Program-made: the position numbers and the translations under genes
Origin: Komagataeibacter intermedius TF2
GTDB lineage: Bacteria; Pseudomonadota; Alphaproteobacteria; Acetobacterales; Acetobacteraceae
Length of the DNA: 56,346 bases
Reading direction: 5' to 3'
Assembly: GCF_000964425.1 (NCBI RefSeq)
Contig: NZ_BANF01000021.1
Span: forward strand, 1 to 56,346
Part shown: piece by piece, positions 39,816-52,076 of the stretch
Layout: each line of letters begins with the position of its first letter
How positions within the stretch are numbered: the first letter of the stretch is position 1
The notes under the pieces: generated by a model
What the model was told of the DNA's origin: nothing
Databases searched by the model: none
The model's input: the letters and a program-made list of their open reading frames with translations, nothing else

Positions 39816-41039
39816 TCAGATCGGCATGGCACGTTCAAAGATGTTTTCCAGCGCCATGATGCCCGGCAGCGTCTTGCCTTCCATCCATTCAAGGAAAGCC
39901 CCGCCCGCGCTGGAAATATAGGAGATATGTTTCTCCACCCCCGCATGGCGCAGTGCCGAAACCGTGTCCCCACCGCCCGCGATGCTTTTCAGTGCGCCGG
40001 AATCGGTCAGGCGGGCGACATCGCGCGCCACGGCGTTGGTTGCCGCATCGAACGGCGTGATCTCGAACGCGCCCAGCGGGCCGTTCCAGACCAGCGTCTT
40101 CAACGTCGCGATCTTCTGCTCGATCAGCTTCACCGTTTCCGGTCCGACATCCAGCATCATGGCATCAGCAGGAATGGCGTTGACGGGCACGGTGCGGGTC
40201 GGGACATTGGCCTGGAAATCGGTGGCGGTCACGGCATCAACCGGCAGCACGATCTCGCAGCCCTTTTCCTTTGCTTTCGCAAGGATGTCGCGCGCGGTGT
40301 CGTGCATCTCCGCTTCCTGCAGCGACCGGCCCACGTTCACCCCCTGCGCCGCAAGGAACGTGTTGGCCATGGCGCCACCAATGATCAGCATGTCCACTTT
40401 TGCCAGCAGGTTGCCGATCAGGTCCAGCTTGGTGGAAATCTTGGCCCCGCCCACGATGGCCCCGACCGGGCGGGCAGGGTTTTCCAGCGCGATGTTCAGC
40501 GCGTTGAGTTCCGTTTCCATCAGCCGCCCGGCAAAGGACGGCAGCAGGCGGGCCACGCCTTCGGTCGAGGCATGGGCGCGGTGGGCCGCGGAAAACGCGT
40601 CATTGACGTAATAATCGGCCAGCGACGCGAACGCCTTCGCCAGCTCGGGGTCGTTCTGCTCCTCCCCGGGGTAGAAGCGGGTGTTTTCCAGTACCACGAC
40701 ATCGCCATCGTGCATGGCGTCCACCGCCTGCCGGGCCTTCGGGCCGATACAGTCATCGACAAAGGTCACCGGGCGGCCCAGCGCATCCCCCAGCGCATCG
40801 GCGATCGGGCCAAGCGACATTTCCGGCACGGGCCTGCCCCTGGGGCGGTCGAAGTGACTGACGACAATCACCTTCGCGCCCTTCTGGGCCAGTTCCTGAA
40901 TGGTGGGCAGCAGGCGCAGGATGCGCGTGGCGTCGGTGATCTGGGCGTTGCGGACCGGAACGTTCAGATCGGCGCGCAGGAGGACCTTCTTGCCAGTGGC
41001 GTCAAGGTCATCCAGCGTCTTGAAGGATGTGGCCCCCAT
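39816..41039 (-). CDS. pgk: Phosphoglycerate kinase
   Basis: Makes ATP and 3-phosphoglycerate from 1,3-bisphosphoglycerate. The 407-residue two-domain protein has [13 protein letters not shown], the basic [23 protein letters not shown]-type [23 protein letters not shown] and the C-terminal [12 protein letters not shown] nucleotide loop. The ATG at 41039 shares its first base with the gap stop (TAATG), so the two are tightly coupled; a longer frame to 41093 is inside gap and is rejected. Confidence 0.97.
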
Positions 41040-42061
41040 TACAGTGCCCCGAATACGGCCGCCGTGTCGGCCATGCGGTTGGAGAAGCCCCATTCATTGT
41101 CATACCAGCTGCAGATGCGCACCAGCCTGCCACCGTCGATCACGGCGGTCTGGGTCGCATCAAACGTGGATGACGCGGGGGAGTGATTGAAATCCGTGCT
41201 GACCAGCGGCGCGGTGCTGTAGGCGAGGATGCCCTTCAGCGGGCCGGATTCCGATGCCTTGCGCAGTGCTTCGTTCACCTCATCGACCGAGGCCGGGGCC
41301 TTCTTCGGCACGAAGTCGAGCGAGACGAGCGAGACATTGGGCGTGGGCACGCGAATCGCCGTGCCGTCCAGACGGCCCTTGAGGTGCGGCAGCACCAGCC
41401 CCACGGCGCGCGCGGCCCCGGTGGAGGTCGGGATCATGTTCAGCGCCGCCCCGCGTGCGCGGCGCAGGTCCTTGTGCAGGGTGTCCACCGTGCGCTGGTC
41501 GCCGGTGTAGGAATGGATGGTGACCATGTAGCCGCATTCGATGCCGAACGTGTCATCCAGCACCTTGGCCACCGGGGCCAGGCAGTTGGTGGTGCACGAC
41601 GCGTTGGAAATGACGGTCATGTCCGGCGTCAGCACATCCTGGTTCACGCCGAACACGATGGTGGCGTCCACGCCCGACGCGGGGGCGGACACGATCACCT
41701 TGCGCGCGCCCGCCTTGATCAGCTGGGCGGCCTTTTCCTTGTCGGTGAAGCGGCCGGTGCATTCCAGCGCCACATCCACGCCCTGGAACGGCACCTTCGT
41801 CGGGTCGGCCTCGGCCGAGACGGTGATGGGGTCGTAGGTGCGGCCATTGGCGGTAATGATGATCTGGTTGCCATCCACCTTCACATCGGCGGGGAAGCGG
41901 CCATGCACGCTGTCATAGGACAGAAGGTGTGCGTTGTCTGCCACGCTGCCGAGGTCATTGATGGCGACGGGTACGACATCGGTACGCCCGCTTTCGATAA
42001 TGCCACGCAGCACAAGGCGACCAATGCGACCGAAACCGTTTATTGCGACTTTAACAGCCAT
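41039..42061 (-). CDS. gap: Glyceraldehyde-3-phosphate dehydrogenase
   Basis: Oxidises glyceraldehyde 3-phosphate to 1,3-bisphosphoglycerate. The 340-residue protein has the Rossmann GFGRIGR, catalytic Cys156 ([12 protein letters not shown]) with His183 (TIHSYTGDQ), and NEWGFSNRM near the end. N-D at 35-36 after the second strand suggests NAD rather than NADP preference. It lies 30 bases after the transketolase-like gene, with GGAGAAAA before its ATG, so one transcript probably carries the transketolase-like gene, gap and pgk. Confidence 0.97.
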
Positions 42062-42091: not shown

Positions 42092-44023
42092 TCACACACT
42101 GACATCGACCGATGTCATCCCGGGCGGCGCGCCGTTTCCGCCCGCCGGTTCAGGCAGGGTATCGGACAGGGGACGGACCAGGCGCAGCGCGTCGCGGCAG
42201 ATCCGTTCCGGCGTGATGTCAGTCGTGCTGTCCGGCTGGTCCGGGGTGGCGACCGTCCCGAACCCGTCAATGCCAACAAACAGCCCGTCTGTTCCAAGCC
42301 AGCGTTCCCATCCAAACCCTGACGCGGCTTCGATGCCGATCCGGGGTGCCGTTCCCAGCACGGCGGCACGATACGTCATTTTTTGCGCGGCGAACAGTTC
42401 CCAGCATGGAAGGGATACGACAGCCGCCGCAACCCCTGCGTCCTTCAACAGTTTGCGTGCCGCCAGCGCCAGTATCGCCTCGTGCCCCGTGGCGACCAGC
42501 GTGACCTGCCGCGCCCCTTCGGCTTCCGCCAGGACGTAGCCGCCACGCGCGCACAGGTTGGTCAGCCCGTGCTGTTCGCGTTCCGGGGCGCCCGCCGCCG
42601 CCAGCGCGGGGGCGGATTCCAGTGTCAGCAGGCTTGGTCCGCTGGTCCGCCGCAGCGCCAGTTCCATGCATTCCATCGTCTCGCGGTGGTCCGCGGGGCG
42701 GAAAACCGCCACGTTGGGCATGGCGCGCAGGCTGGCCAGCTGTTCCACCGGCTGGTCGCCTGCCGCGCCGTCGCCGCTCAGCAGGTCGTCATCGGTCAGC
42801 AGGTAGATCACCTGCAGGTCCGTCATGGCGGCATAGCGCAGGGCGGGACGCATGCGGTCCACCGCGATGATGGTCGATGTGCCCGCCGCCAGCAGCCCGT
42901 CATGCATGGCGATGCCATTGAGCAGGGCCGCCATGCCATGCACCTGCGTCCCGCATGACAGGTCCGTCTCGCCACCGTTGCGGCGGTTCGTGGGCAGGTC
43001 GGCCAGCATGCCCCGGCGTGAGCGCAGGCAGGTCAGTTCCGGCAGGAGTTCATGTAGCGTTTCGAGTCCCCGCCGGGCTGCGAACGTGGGTGCGACACGG
43101 GCGATGGCGCTGCCGTGTTCGCGCCATGACCGTTGCCAGTCGGGCTGCCAGAAGGCGGGACGCTGGTTGTGGGCCATGCGTTCGAATTCGGCCTTCTGCC
43201 GGTCCTTGAGCAGCCGGCGCAGCCAGGAGCGGCGCGCGCTGGCCCCGCGCCGGGCGGCCCCCGCCCACAGGCCCGGATCATCGACAAAGGGGGGCGGCGG
43301 GTCAATTTCCGGCGAGGCGATGCATGCGATCAGACAGGGCTTGTGCGTGCGCTGTGACGACGTGATGGCGGCCGCGATCTGTTCGGGACTGTCGGCGTCC
43401 ACCTTCCGCACTGACCAGCCCGATGCGCTGTAGCGCGGCAGGATGGCGTCCACGGCTTCGCGCTCGCTTGTCCACAGGCCGACGACCAGCGTAACCCGGT
43501 CCAGTCCCATCTGGCCCGCGAGCGCCGCGCTTTCCAGCGCGACGCCGGTGGACAGTTCGGTCCAGCAGCCCAGCCCCCATATCCGGTGGTTGACCAGCGA
43601 TCGCCCAAACCGTGCCGCCAGCGTCTGTTCCGCCAGCGCCATGCCGATCGCGGCCCCCAGCCCCTGCCCGCTGGGGCCGCAGGCCTGACGGTCATGCGGC
43701 GGGGCGGGGTGGTCGCCCACGCGCGGTGGCAGCGGCGCCTGCCCCGACAGTTCGGCCATGATGCGCGGCAGCACACGGTAGCGGGGGGAGGACACCACGA
43801 AGCGGTCCCGGTCCGGCCATTCCGGGCTGGCGGGATCGAAGCGCAGGAAACGACTCCACAACACCGCGCAGAAACACGACATGACCCGGGCGTGGGGGGC
43901 ATACCGGCGGTTGGGTTCATGGGTGCCGATGGCATGGTGGATGGCCGTCGTCAGCCGCTGTGGCATGCTGGGGGCCACGGCTGGCGTGGCGGGCGGGGTC
44001 ATGCTGGCCTGGTCTGTTGGCAT
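42092..44023 (-). CDS. Transketolase-like protein lacking the catalytic residues
   Basis: The 643 residues align along their length with transketolase: VLWSRFLRFDPASPEWPDRDRFVVS, GPSGQGLGAAIGMALAEQTLAA, and MRPALRYAAM...QPVEQLASLRAMPNVAVFRPAD. But the metal/cofactor GDG is GLG (150-152), the DDN region is VGL (181-183), NGHG is SPRY (79-82), the catalytic Glu of REFGM is Val361, and THQPVEQ has Asp423. The frame is intact and heads gap-pgk, where other alphaproteobacteria carry tkt. It is probably a non-enzymatic or repurposed paralogue. The ATG at 44023 follows AGGA; the frame extends far upstream without family support. Confidence 0.85.
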   Translation of the reverse strand: MPTDQASMTPPATPAVAPSMPQRLTTAIHHAIGTHEPNRRYAPHARVMSCFCAVLWSRFLRFDPASPEWPDRDRFVVSSPRYRVLPRIMAELSGQAPLPPRVGDHPAPPHDRQACGPSGQGLGAAIGMALAEQTLAARFGRSLVNHRIWGLGCWTELSTGVALESAALAGQMGLDRVTLVVGLWTSEREAVDAILPRYSASGWSVRKVDADSPEQIAAAITSSQRTHKPCLIACIASPEIDPPPPFVDDPGLWAGAARRGASARRSWLRRLLKDRQKAEFERMAHNQRPAFWQPDWQRSWREHGSAIARVAPTFAARRGLETLHELLPELTCLRSRRGMLADLPTNRRNGGETDLSCGTQVHGMAALLNGIAMHDGLLAAGTSTIIAVDRMRPALRYAAMTDLQVIYLLTDDDLLSGDGAAGDQPVEQLASLRAMPNVAVFRPADHRETMECMELALRRTSGPSLLTLESAPALAAAGAPEREQHGLTNLCARGGYVLAEAEGARQVTLVATGHEAILALAARKLLKDAGVAAAVVSLPCWELFAAQKMTYRAAVLGTAPRIGIEAASGFGWERWLGTDGLFVGIDGFGTVATPDQPDSTTDITPERICRDALRLVRPLSDTLPEPAGGNGAPPGMTSVDVSV

Positions 44024-44168
44024 CGGCATCGTCCTGGGGTCGGGGAATGATCGGTCGGAGCCGTCCCGCATGACTACTGCGCTGCGCGGGCGGCGGCAAT
44101 ATTGCGCGCGATATTGCGCTATTGTCCCACTATGCCACGCGGGGGGGATACTGTATCGGTATGGGGCC

Positions 44169-44633
44169 ATGTTCCGTCCGCTCCCGTGCCCCGTCCGCCG
44201 TGTCGTCCTTGCCGCCGCAGCCTGCCTGCCGGTGCTGGGCGGGTGCACGCTGGTCAGCCAGAAAACATTCAACCGCCACGCGGGCGACCCGCCACGGCTG
44301 CCGCAGCGCCCGCCGCCGCCGGTGCCCGGCATGGACCGTCCCGCGCTGGTCACGATCGTGGCCGGGACGCCGGAAGCGCAGTGGAAACCCGCCGTCCGCG
44401 CCGCCGTGGCCGATGCCCTGTCGCGCAAGCCCAACGCGCTGTTCACCATTGTGGTCAGCGTGCCCGAGCGCGCCGATGGCAGCCTGCCGGACATGCCGAA
44501 GGTGGTGGATGCGGATGGCCAGCCTGTCCTGCAGGCGGTGATGGATGCAGGCGCGGGCGGGGGACAGACGGAAATGGACGCCCGCAGCGTGCCCGCGAAC
44601 AGCGCAACGCAGGTCTGCATTTACGCGGAGTAG
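44169..44633 (+). CDS. Predicted lipoprotein of unknown function
   Basis: A 154-residue protein with a lipoprotein signal (VVLAAAACLPVLGGC-TL, Cys near residue 25). The mature part has a Pro-rich spacer (PPRLPQRPPPPVPG), then RPALVTIVAGTPEAQWKPAVRAAVADALSRKPNALFTIVVSV, and PANSATQVCIYAE at the end. I recognise no named family. The ATG at 44169 is chosen for the signal peptide; the frame continues upstream into the divergent transketolase-like gene and is not real there. It is divergent from that gene, with 145 bases between. Confidence 0.72.
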   Translation: MFRPLPCPVRRVVLAAAACLPVLGGCTLVSQKTFNRHAGDPPRLPQRPPPPVPGMDRPALVTIVAGTPEAQWKPAVRAAVADALSRKPNALFTIVVSVPERADGSLPDMPKVVDADGQPVLQAVMDAGAGGGQTEMDARSVPANSATQVCIYAE

Positions 44634-46952: not shown

Positions 46953-47159
46953 GGGTTTGCTCCGTTATCATGTCAGGATAATGTGTCTGTAAATGATCGG
47001 GCACGGGAAAGGAATGGGCCATTGGCGGTGGACAGGGCGGCCTGACCTGTTGCCGACGGCCCGTAAGGCCGTTAAGTCGTGATGGGTCTGCCATGATCGC
47101 GCGGTCGTGCGGAATCCGTTGAGTTTATCAAAGCCGACTGCCCATTGGAGAAGCGTTGC

Positions 47160-48620
47160 GTGCCTGAGCCTTCGATCACCCCTGTTGCCCGTCGGTACAT
47201 GCGTACGGCGCTTTCGGCCGTTCTGGCCATTTCGGTTGCTGGGTGCGCCGGTCATCGTTATTCGCCCATGCGGCTTGTCTCGCACATGTTCGGTCCGTCG
47301 CCCGGACCGCTGATCGGCACGGTTTCGTCGGACGAACCGCAGGCGACGCTGGTGGGGCGTGATATCCTGCAACGCGGCGGCAACGCGGCGGATGCGGCTA
47401 CGGCCATGGGGCTGGCGCTGTCGGTCACGCTGCCGTCGCGCGCATCGCTGGGGGCGGGCGGGGCGTGCCTTGCCTATCGTCCGGGTGACCAGAATGGCGG
47501 ACGTGCCTTCATGTTCCTGCCCGCCGCGGGCACGGTGGCAGCCCCCGACATGCCGCATGCCGACCGTCCGGCCGCGGTCCCGATGCTGGCGCGGGGGCTG
47601 TACCTCATGCACCTGCAGTACGGGTCGGCTGCGTTTTCGGAACTGGTGCCTGATGCGATCGCGCTGGCGGCCAACGGCATCAATGTCAGCCGGCAGCTGG
47701 CCAGCGACCTTGCCGCCGTTCAGGTGCCGCTGCTGGCTGATGCGGGCGTCCGCGCGGTTTTCAGCCGCTCGGACGGCAAGGCGCTGGCGGAAGGCGATGC
47801 ACTGGTCCAGACCCATCTGTCCGGTGCGCTGGACCAGATCCGCAGCATGGGCGTGGGCGACCTGTATAATGGCGCGCTGGGTCAGTCCTTTGTCGCAGGC
47901 AGCCAGGCCGCTGGTGGCGGGTTGCAGATGACGGACATGCGTCGCGCCATTCCGTCCGAACGCCTGCCCATCAGCCTGACCAGCGGAGAAACGCAGATCG
48001 CCTTCCTGCCGCCGCCGGCCGATGGTGGCCTGGGCAGCGCCGTTGCGTTCCGTGCCGGGTCATCGTCCGACGCGGCGACGCGCGCGCAGTCCAGCATCGC
48101 GGCATGGCGGGCGCAGAATGGCAGCCACGCTTCGGGTACGGGTGACGACCTGACGGCGCGCGCGCAGGCATTCGTCAACAGTGGCGGGGGAAGCGGCGGC
48201 GGGCTGCCTTCGCTTCCGGCGTCCACCTCGTTCACCGTGGTTGATCATTCGGGCATGGCCGTGGCGTGCAGCCTGAGTATGGACAACCTGTTTGGCACCG
48301 GACGCATGGCGGGCAATACCGGCATCGTGCTGGGGGCGTCGCCCGCGCGCCTGCCGCTGCCGCTGTTTACGGCTGCCATCGCCAGCCAGGGTCGCGCCTT
48401 CCGTGCCGCTGTTGCCGGTTCGGGACAGAATGACGCCGCCGCCGCCGTGGGCATTGCCATGCACCAGATCATGGCGGGACAGACACCCGACGCCCATCCG
48501 GTCACGGCCCAGGGCCGGGTCAATGCCGTGTCCTGCCCGCATGGCCTGCCGGGTGACGCCAGCACCTGCACCGCCGCGACCGATCCGCGTGGCGCGGGAC
48601 TGGCCATGGGGCCGCGTTAG
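47160..48620 (+). CDS. Gamma-glutamyltransferase-like lipoprotein, altered active site
   Basis: A 486-residue protein with a lipoprotein signal (VLAISVAGC, Cys29) and the gamma-glutamyltranspeptidase fold: RDILQRGGNAADAATAMGLAL, then ASLGAGGACLAYRPG, and STSFTVVDHSGMAVACSLS at the small-subunit start. The nucleophile Thr of the family aligns with Ser355. The Arg that binds the gamma-glutamyl carboxylate (LDGRE-type) is absent (FLPAAGTVAAPD), and GSPGGS is replaced by GSGQND. Enzyme activity is therefore doubtful. The GTG start at 47160 follows GGAG by nine bases. It lies upstream of recA. Confidence 0.82.
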   Translation: MPEPSITPVARRYMRTALSAVLAISVAGCAGHRYSPMRLVSHMFGPSPGPLIGTVSSDEPQATLVGRDILQRGGNAADAATAMGLALSVTLPSRASLGAGGACLAYRPGDQNGGRAFMFLPAAGTVAAPDMPHADRPAAVPMLARGLYLMHLQYGSAAFSELVPDAIALAANGINVSRQLASDLAAVQVPLLADAGVRAVFSRSDGKALAEGDALVQTHLSGALDQIRSMGVGDLYNGALGQSFVAGSQAAGGGLQMTDMRRAIPSERLPISLTSGETQIAFLPPPADGGLGSAVAFRAGSSSDAATRAQSSIAAWRAQNGSHASGTGDDLTARAQAFVNSGGGSGGGLPSLPASTSFTVVDHSGMAVACSLSMDNLFGTGRMAGNTGIVLGASPARLPLPLFTAAIASQGRAFRAAVAGSGQNDAAAAVGIAMHQIMAGQTPDAHPVTAQGRVNAVSCPHGLPGDASTCTAATDPRGAGLAMGPR

Positions 48621-50456: not shown

Positions 50457-51782
50457 TTAAACGACCAGCACCGCCCGGATGTCGTTCACGTTGGTCAGGG
50501 TCGGCCCGGTCATGATCAGGTCCCCCGTCTGCTGGAACAGGGTGTAGCTGTCATGGGCGCGCAGGTACGCACGTGGGTCACAGCCCAGTGCGCGGGCACG
50601 GGACAGGGTGGTGGGGGTAATGATCGCGCCTGCCGCGTCCTCGGTCCCGTCAATGCCGTCGCTATCTGCAGCAATGGCCCATATCCCCTCGCGCCCCTGC
50701 AGGGCGTTGGCCATGGACAGCAGGAATTCCGTGTTGCGGCCGCCATGTCCCGGCGTGGGCTGGTCGGGGCGGATGGTCACCGTCGTCTCGCCGCCTGACA
50801 GCAGCACGGCGGGCCCTGCCACCGGCATGCCGTGCTGGCGGGCGGACAGGGCGATGCCCGCCATCAACGTGCCCGCATCCCGGCTTTCCCCTTCCAGCGC
50901 ATCGCCCAGCACCAGGGGCGTCAGCCCGTATTCGCGCGCGACGCTGGCGGCGGCCTGCAACGCCATGAATGGCGTGGAAACAAGGGTGTAGCGATTGCGT
51001 GGCGACAGGGTGCCATTGACCGGCGGCTGCATGAGCACGCGCCGCACCGCGTCAGGCACGGTAATGCCGTAATGCGCGATGATGGACCGGGCATCGGCAG
51101 CGGTGGTGGGATCGGCCACGGTCGGGCCACTGGCAATGGTCAGCGGGTCATCGCCTGGTACGTCGCTTATGGCCAGCGTGACCACGCGTGCGGGGCTGGC
51201 TGCCGCCGCAAGGCCACCGCCCTTGATGGCCGACAGGTGGCGACGCACGACATTCATGTCGCGTATGCTGGCCCCCGAATGCAGCAGGGCGCGGTTGACC
51301 ACACGGATGTCATCCAGCGTCAGGCCATCCTTGGGCAGTTCCAGCAGTGCCGATCCCCCGCCGGAAATCAGGGCGATGACAAGGTCATCCGGGCCCAGTC
51401 CCGCGACTTCGGACATCATGGCGCGGGCGGCGGCCTCGCTGCGGCTGTCGGGGACAGGGTGGGCGGCTTCCAGCACGCGGATGCGGCGCGTGGGGGCCAT
51501 ATGCCCGTCGCGCGTGACCACGCACCCGGTCAGGTCCACATCCGGCCATGCCTGTTCCAGTGCCGCGGCCATGGCCGCCGCCGCCTTTCCCGCGCCCACC
51601 ACCACGCATTTTCCCTTTGGCCGGGGTGGCAGGTAGCGCGCCAGAACCACATCGGGCATGGCGCTGCGGATGGCGGCGTCCAGTATGCCCCGCAGGGTCG
51701 TGCGCGCGCGGCCGTCCGTCCAGTCCGTGGCCATGGTGGTACGGGCTGTAGCGGAAAATGGATGGATGGTGGTGTCGTTCAT
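50457..51782 (-). CDS. Glycerate 2-kinase (GckA/TtuD, MOFRL family)
   Basis: A 441-residue protein of the bacterial class II glycerate kinase family, which phosphorylates D-glycerate to 2-phosphoglycerate; older annotations call it hydroxypyruvate reductase (TtuD). The N-terminal domain has VVVGAGKAAAAMAAALE and ALISGGGSALLELP. The C-terminal MOFRL domain has LLSGGETTVTI and GGRNTEFLLSMANAL, followed by AADSDGIDGTEDAAGA. The ATG at 51782 follows GGAT; the frame to 51896 is unlikely. It would feed glycerate into lower glycolysis. It is divergent from coaA. Confidence 0.9.
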   Translation of the reverse strand: MNDTTIHPFSATARTTMATDWTDGRARTTLRGILDAAIRSAMPDVVLARYLPPRPKGKCVVVGAGKAAAAMAAALEQAWPDVDLTGCVVTRDGHMAPTRRIRVLEAAHPVPDSRSEAAARAMMSEVAGLGPDDLVIALISGGGSALLELPKDGLTLDDIRVVNRALLHSGASIRDMNVVRRHLSAIKGGGLAAAASPARVVTLAISDVPGDDPLTIASGPTVADPTTAADARSIIAHYGITVPDAVRRVLMQPPVNGTLSPRNRYTLVSTPFMALQAAASVAREYGLTPLVLGDALEGESRDAGTLMAGIALSARQHGMPVAGPAVLLSGGETTVTIRPDQPTPGHGGRNTEFLLSMANALQGREGIWAIAADSDGIDGTEDAAGAIITPTTLSRARALGCDPRAYLRAHDSYTLFQQTGDLIMTGPTLTNVNDIRAVLVV

Positions 51783-52076
51783 TACAGTATCCATATCCTT
51801 CGGGCATGCGTCGGCACACGGGCCGGGTTCATATCGTAACGCATGGCGCGCGGACGGGATGCACGTCGGTCCCTGCGCCCTGTCCATATCATCCATGCGG
51901 TGGCGGACAGTGTGTCACAATTATCACGTCTCTATCAGGATGGGGGGAAAGTCCCGGTCCGTGGGCGTTGCACACGCTAATTTGGGGGACGGGTGTATGG
52001 ATTGGTATGGGTGATGGTGATACGCGGCAGATGGCCTGCACCAGTGGGCAGGCGCCACAGCAGAAAGGACAAGGGC

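Follow-up and report, generated by a model that had tools for sequence, protein, structure and literature searches.

Pseudoenzymes are already known, and the human protein TKTL1 provides a transketolase example: passages in two reports (PMC6555833, PMC12525540) describe a transketolase relative in which thiamine diphosphate ligands are deleted and which exists beside an active transketolase. The other close system is the operon transketolase of the TktA family, encoded in the arrangement tkt-gap-pgk. Here we present a transketolase pseudoenzyme (P0001; 643 amino acids) encoded at the apparent head of such an operon. P0001 shares the gene position, three-domain architecture and third-domain pattern of the intact Acetobacteraceae operon copies but differs from them in having no cofactor ligands, catalytic Glu, active-site histidines or His261 loop. 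From TKTL1 it differs by another deletion, a deeper loss (0 of 16 active-site residues kept), a bacterial gap/pgk operon and a repeated origin. Among the matches listed for the open-licence literature, none reports a transketolase pseudoenzyme that is bacterial, lies in an operon and arose repeatedly, or a demonstrated non-catalytic function for a protein of the P0001 type. New relative to the preliminary description of this DNA are the occurrence of more than one loss, always with another transketolase gene present, and the identity of the best-kept part, the third domain.

The gene occupies positions 42092–44023 on the minus strand of the window (the whole stretch of 56,346 nucleotides analysed here), with its ATG at 44023 and its stop at 42092; the same frame on the plus strand contains stops. 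A frame spanning the full transketolase fold had been proposed at this place with no strand given; the frame and its three Pfam domains hold, and the strand is minus. Matches were obtained to Transketolase_N (1.4e-24), Transket_pyr (5.8e-16) and Transketolase_C_1 (9e-30), and PF00456, PF02779 and PF22613 occur in order and above cut-offs, which places P0001 in the transketolase superfamily at the level of fold. Its NCBIfam TIGR00232 score is below the curated one (275 bits versus a cut-off of 682). The frame stays open to 44620 in this genome; the start was set at 44023, which is likely because 12 of the 16 full-length Komagataeibacter rows carry a stop 17 codons ahead of the aligned ATG. The open stretch upstream of the start, up to 44620, contrasts with those 12 rows (window 43881–44633, plus strand). 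The orthologue in L004 is 98% identical, and the host is a Komagataeibacter close to K. oboediens.

The gap gene (glyceraldehyde-3-phosphate dehydrogenase; 41039–42061, minus strand) starts 31 nt downstream of the P0001 gene. It is followed by pgk (phosphoglycerate kinase; 39816–41039, minus strand, with the 407-amino-acid start used in relatives), the start codon of which overlaps the gap stop as TAATG, in keeping with the operon suggested earlier. The P0001 gene appears to head this operon because a presumed divergent small gene begins at 44169, and the 145 nt between the two (44024–44168) are, by position, the presumed operon promoter region. A promoter scan of 44024–44168 returned no consensus match; the single minus-strand consensus-like site lies inside the P0001 gene (43305–43277, 9/12). 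The presumed small gene itself looks lipoprotein-like from a motif seen by eye and has no Pfam match.

Active sites were scored against the E. coli TktA sequence, aligned to P0001 and its relatives; L003 (a duplicate), L015 and L042 (partial) and L020 (a near copy of L010) were left out of this alignment, and L011–L014 were scored in a later Komagataeibacter count. In TktA numbering, the 16 scored residues are His26, His66, His100, Asp155, Asn185, Ile187, His261, Arg358, Ser385, Glu411, Phe434, Phe437, His461, Asp469, His473 and Arg520. P0001 keeps none of them in the alignment. Most of the TktA segment 91–100 is absent from P0001, and so is the His261 loop, so that His261 has no counterpart, as had been noticed before. 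The Mg/thiamine diphosphate ligands Asp155, Asn185 and Ile187 are replaced by Trp, Trp and Ser, and none of the active-site histidines 26, 66, 100, 261 and 473 is kept. The PP (thiamine diphosphate pyrophosphate) domain match (43322–43876, minus strand) is accordingly degenerate, with Asp155, Asn185, His66, His100 and the His261 loop gone. So is the Pyr domain match (residues 362–468; 42620–42940, minus strand), in which Phe434 and Phe437 have become Thr and Ala and His473 has become Asp. The change of the catalytic Glu411 to Val sits at P0001 residue 361, directly ahead of the Pyr match; Val is likewise found in the other 16 Komagataeibacter rows and in six rows of g73 and g43. Of the substitutions listed in the preliminary description, Glu411 to Val and His473 to Asp are borne out, as are changes at His66 (to Arg) and Asn185 (to Trp). 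The pairing of the GDG motif with GLG was off by two residues: the alignment gives C-W-T there, with Asp155 as Trp. Passages in PMC3352088 assign cofactor roles, in another bacterial transketolase, to the presumed equivalents of His66, Asp155, Asn185, Ile187, His261 and Glu411. The verdict on P0001 therefore rests on Asp155, Asn185, Glu411, His66, His261, His461 and the phenylalanines, and not on Gly154, Tyr440 or His473. By the established mechanism, P0001 would be unable to work as a transketolase. An AlphaFold2 model built on 13 close sequences had a mean pLDDT of 40 and a pTM of 0.36 with a shallow alignment, and supports no fold or pocket claim.

The same state extends through Komagataeibacter, where 16 full-length rows (P0001 included) and one partial row keep 0–1 of the 16 residues, the one being an alignable His26. 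A sequencing error or a copy decaying in one strain alone is thereby ruled out; this was the case, with this strain mutated and its orthologues intact, that the preliminary description had named as counting against it. The arrangement tkt-gap-pgk is common in Acetobacteraceae, and a degenerate operon transketolase with an open frame was found in 33 sequence-checked genomes of 19 genera (0–11 of 16 residues kept). None of these has His at 261, and their His261 loop is short of 6–18 of the 32 columns of that alignment. Thirteen still have Glu411 and seven Asp155, but no genome combines Asp155, Asn185 and Glu411. In 32 of the 33, the degenerate gene has gap as its neighbour on its own strand, the exception being L038, with no gap in the fetched flank. 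A 50-row set, made without L060 and L062 (partial) and without 11 Komagataeibacter rows, contained 33 rows at 0–11, TktA, L001 and L002, and operon-type family copies at 16/16 (ten), 15/16 (two), 14/16 (one) and 12/16 (one, L050). Five further partial loci (L042, L109, L111, L113 and L117) look degenerate.

More distant orthologues in the same operon position are intact; for one intact copy, L049, gap was not seen within the fetched stretch. A class-wide profile search of 190 genomes gives matches unsorted as intact or degenerate, and the 11 loci fetched from outside Acetobacteraceae were all 16/16. In a set of 24 genomes chosen for their weak matches, gap was located in 22, of which 18 had no tkt-like frame ahead of it (656–1500 nt seen); the protein is therefore dispensable in part of the family. 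Loss is graded within a single genus, g92, the three genomes of which keep 12 (L050), 10 (L033) and 3 (L039) of the 16 residues. The mildest losses among the degenerate copies (11/16 in G078 and 10/16 in G092) may leave residual activity, though both are without His261 and Asn185. L050, from genome G151, reads as an early-stage operon transketolase with Arg in place of His261, Ala in place of Ser385, and Tyr in place of both Phe437 and His473; G151 holds two other transketolase matches above 430 bits, one of which (L068) was read as 16/16.

The expectation that an active transketolase should be encoded elsewhere in the genome was correct, and there are two. L001 and L002 (genome G000, C900 and C903) are intact at 16/16 each and 83% identical to each other. 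They share the organism with P0001 and are its likely source of transketolase activity but, unlike P0001, belong to another subfamily (about 28–32% identity to P0001) and lie away from the operon, with no gap or pgk in their 4-kb loci. Every one of the 33 degenerate genomes carries another transketolase gene (Transketolase_N above 300 bits), and in 22 of them, L001/L002 included, it was read at residue level and found to be 16/16 each time. The 29 strong-match loci extracted from the Transketolase_N search, 21 of them from the 33 genomes, were likewise all 16/16. These second transketolases are of three kinds: L001-like (65–95% identity), TktA-like (62–64% to the E. coli protein) and operon-like (56–65% to L046). 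Two loci, L089 and L096, are intact, have gap in their flanking DNA and come from genomes outside the 33. In 64 comparison genomes, which were hand-picked with no random draw and are not mutually independent, 51 had one full-length match and 13 had two or more; 63 had at least one TIGR00232 match of at least 600 bits, and G093 had one frame split in two. Five of the 51 single-copy genomes (G007, G026, G057, G074 and G093) show a further partial match, and the G074 fragment looks degenerate. Intact operon copies coexist with other transketolase genes, as in G099, and a second transketolase therefore permits, and does not force, the loss.

We estimated selection on the protein within Komagataeibacter. 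The median omega (NG86, 15 sequences) was 0.193 for the operon transketolase, 0.044 for gap and 0.085 for pgk (12 rows), and a GY codon model gave 0.119, 0.028 and 0.051, respectively. Variable sites fall at 169, 130 and 435 of 628 codons for the three codon positions. By comparison, a simulated frame kept open and otherwise free (30 runs) has an omega of 1.17 (s.d. 0.11, lowest 0.94). With about 0.2 observed against this null, neutral decay is excluded in Komagataeibacter, and with it a neutral frame kept for polarity only; selection on the protein, as the preliminary description had it, is upheld. The degenerate rows are free of inner stops, a TAG flagged in L034 being the gene's own stop (644 amino acids). 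P0001 is thus not the product of a pseudogene, with no inner stop and an omega of about 0.2, and it is a pseudoenzyme: a homologue of an active enzyme, with catalytic residues gone, under purifying selection. In four Komagataeibacter genomes the intact transketolase has an omega of 0.056–0.092 and the operon copy 0.18–0.22, which is 2–4 times the intact value in the same species. The corresponding values for intact and operon copies are 0.15–0.20 versus 0.15–0.30 in g43 and 0.05 versus 0.12 in g73, and six other degenerate genera range from 0.12 to 0.42. Four intact operon transketolases of other genera gave 0.225–0.273, no lower than many degenerate pairs, with odd values for their gap (0.14–0.56). 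Because such cross-genus values behave poorly as a yardstick, our comparisons of omega are restricted to species pairs and to the simulated null.

In the protein tree, the degenerate L037 groups with L057, an intact copy from its own genus (100/99), and L033 groups with L050 (100/97); L039 does not join L033 and L050, despite the shared genus g92. Parsimony requires three changes, or two with L050 scored as degenerate. A single ancient loss was tried by holding all 33 degenerate rows together, and was rejected (AU p = 0.0028; borderline without L037, p = 0.051). Active-site loss arose more than once, subject to this borderline AU test. Five degenerate operon copies (L035, L038, L043, L051 and L058) sit on very long branches (0.93–1.54), a hint that constraint is weaker there or that these copies are close to being lost.

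Constraint is unevenly spread along the protein. Within Komagataeibacter, the slowest stretches are residues 248–287 (pN/pS 0.05) and 534–595 (0.07–0.10), and the fastest are the two ends (0.48 and 0.62). The former, beginning RRGASARRSWLRRL (43163–43282, minus strand), is the linker stretch and the most constrained part in this genus; the latter falls largely in the third, C-terminal domain match (residues 494–594; 42242–42544, minus strand), the best-kept part of P0001. Across lineages, we compared domains in 19 hand-picked representatives of degenerate lineages with 12 intact operon-type copies, leaving L050 (12/16) and L052 (14/16) out of both groups. Mean pairwise identity among intact copies is 0.78 for PP, 0.66 for the linker, 0.78 for Pyr and 0.73 for the C domain, and among degenerate representatives it is 0.46, 0.46, 0.42 and 0.58, respectively, with 0.67 in the C core. 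Columns conserved in intact copies are retained in degenerate ones at 0.71 in the linker and 0.75 in the C domain, versus 0.48 in PP and 0.51 in Pyr. The relative divergence of the C domain to the catalytic domains is 0.64 of the intact value (0.54–0.78), with 0.66 in the acetic-acid clade and 0.65 in the other lineages; without active-site columns the shift is weaker (0.74; 0.62–0.90). Constraint has thus moved, with relaxed catalytic domains and a slow third domain in two separate sets of lineages. The linker constraint holds for Komagataeibacter; by pairwise identity across lineages, the C domain stands out instead. Transketolases are central enzymes. Their third domain is believed to be regulatory, and the E. 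coli enzyme is active without it, according to passages in PMC3352088.

The preliminary description had proposed selection for a non-enzymatic role, and omega together with the intact transketolases elsewhere lends support to this. We favour, with a probability of roughly 0.55, a pseudoenzyme of recurrent origin, retained for a non-catalytic function that resides mainly in the third domain, as a docking or regulatory subunit beside Gap and Pgk. By position, the P0001 gene is the orthologue of the usual transketolase gene of tkt-gap-pgk operons. Several lineages of Acetobacteraceae have a second, unlinked transketolase, which was presumably there first and would have taken over catalysis. The operon copy has lost the His261 loop together with the Mg, thiamine diphosphate and catalytic residues. 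Purifying selection keeps the copy, with constraint moved to the third domain across lineages and to the linker stretch as well in Komagataeibacter. The third domain would serve a non-catalytic binding role in a protein co-produced with Gap and Pgk from a shared transcript, and P0001 may be a subunit for docking or regulation at the glyceraldehyde-3-phosphate node. If intact operon transketolases already have this role, catalysis could be lost repeatedly without loss of the protein. It is the operon position that suggests a functional link to Gap and Pgk, and the exact role may be that of a scaffold, a regulator or a partner of the active transketolase. The graded loss and the residual Glu411 and Asp155 would also fit ongoing relaxation.

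The operon might instead retain the gene as a relic with no function of its own, if its translation is needed for gap and pgk and an abundant protein must fold without clumping. The adjacency of degenerate tkt and gap in 32 of 33 genomes, the graded loss across genomes, the missing tkt before gap in 18 of the 22 relatives examined and an omega above that of the intact transketolase in Komagataeibacter all suit such a relic. We nevertheless regard it as unlikely: a merely open frame simulates at 1.17 against the 0.2 seen, folding by itself gives no reason for the third domain in particular to be slow in two separate lineage sets, and relatives can evidently do without the gene, which therefore need not stay for polarity. 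Quite unlikely, by analogy with TKTL1, is a partner that would alter the output of an active transketolase through mixed dimers. Passages in PMC6555833 and PMC12525540 report for TKTL1 deleted cofactor ligands, virtual inactivity and stable mixed dimers that bias the reaction, and another transketolase is encoded in all 33 degenerate genomes. The would-be partners, however, are of three kinds by lineage and here about 28–32% identical to P0001; the main dimer contacts lie in domains I and II, with few in the best-kept third (passages in PMC3352088); and a mixed dimer would have a dead half in each of its two active sites.

A rebuilt pocket with a new ligand-binding or catalytic function has in its favour that, in the acetic-acid-bacteria clade, Tyr440 is Arg in 19 of 19 rows over deep divergence, and that about 0.76–0.81 of lineage-weighted clade rows carry Trp for His473, Arg for His66 and Asp for His461. 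As proof of a new pocket, the Tyr440 change is weakened by human transketolase, an active enzyme that has Arg at this site and Gln at the His473 site (passages in PMC3352088; the mapping to TktA numbers is ours). Position 473 moreover varies, being Asp in P0001 and its nearest relative, Gly or a gap in four others and Trp in 10 of the 16 full-length Komagataeibacter rows, and the other degenerate lineages (15 rows) mostly differ, with Arg440 in one and Trp473 in one. We consider a new pocket very unlikely.

Returning to the favoured docking or regulatory subunit, we tentatively suggest a wider proposition, although it is itself rather improbable: the third domain of operon-type transketolases might act at the glyceraldehyde-3-phosphate step in a non-catalytic capacity of its own (Gap/Pgk docking or regulation), and Acetobacteraceae might constitute a repeated natural experiment in which catalysis was removed and the second function left under selection. 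The job of the domain would here be accessible free of catalysis, with catalysis given up more than once, the third domain constrained and intermediates alive in one genus. The published genome of a cellulose-making relative names its four tkt genes as plain transketolases (PMC5908849). For modellers there is a warning in this, as annotation of a tkt gene as a plain transketolase may hide a pseudoenzyme. One of the four genes of that relative is, we assume, probably the P0001 orthologue.

Two further genes in the window are worth recording. A relative of gamma-glutamyltranspeptidase is encoded at 47145–48617 (plus strand); its best Pfam stretch covers profile positions 1–234 of 512, and its second half is unusual. 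A protein with DUF4147 and MOFRL domains, which we presume to be glycerate-kinase-like, is encoded at 50460–51896 (minus strand).
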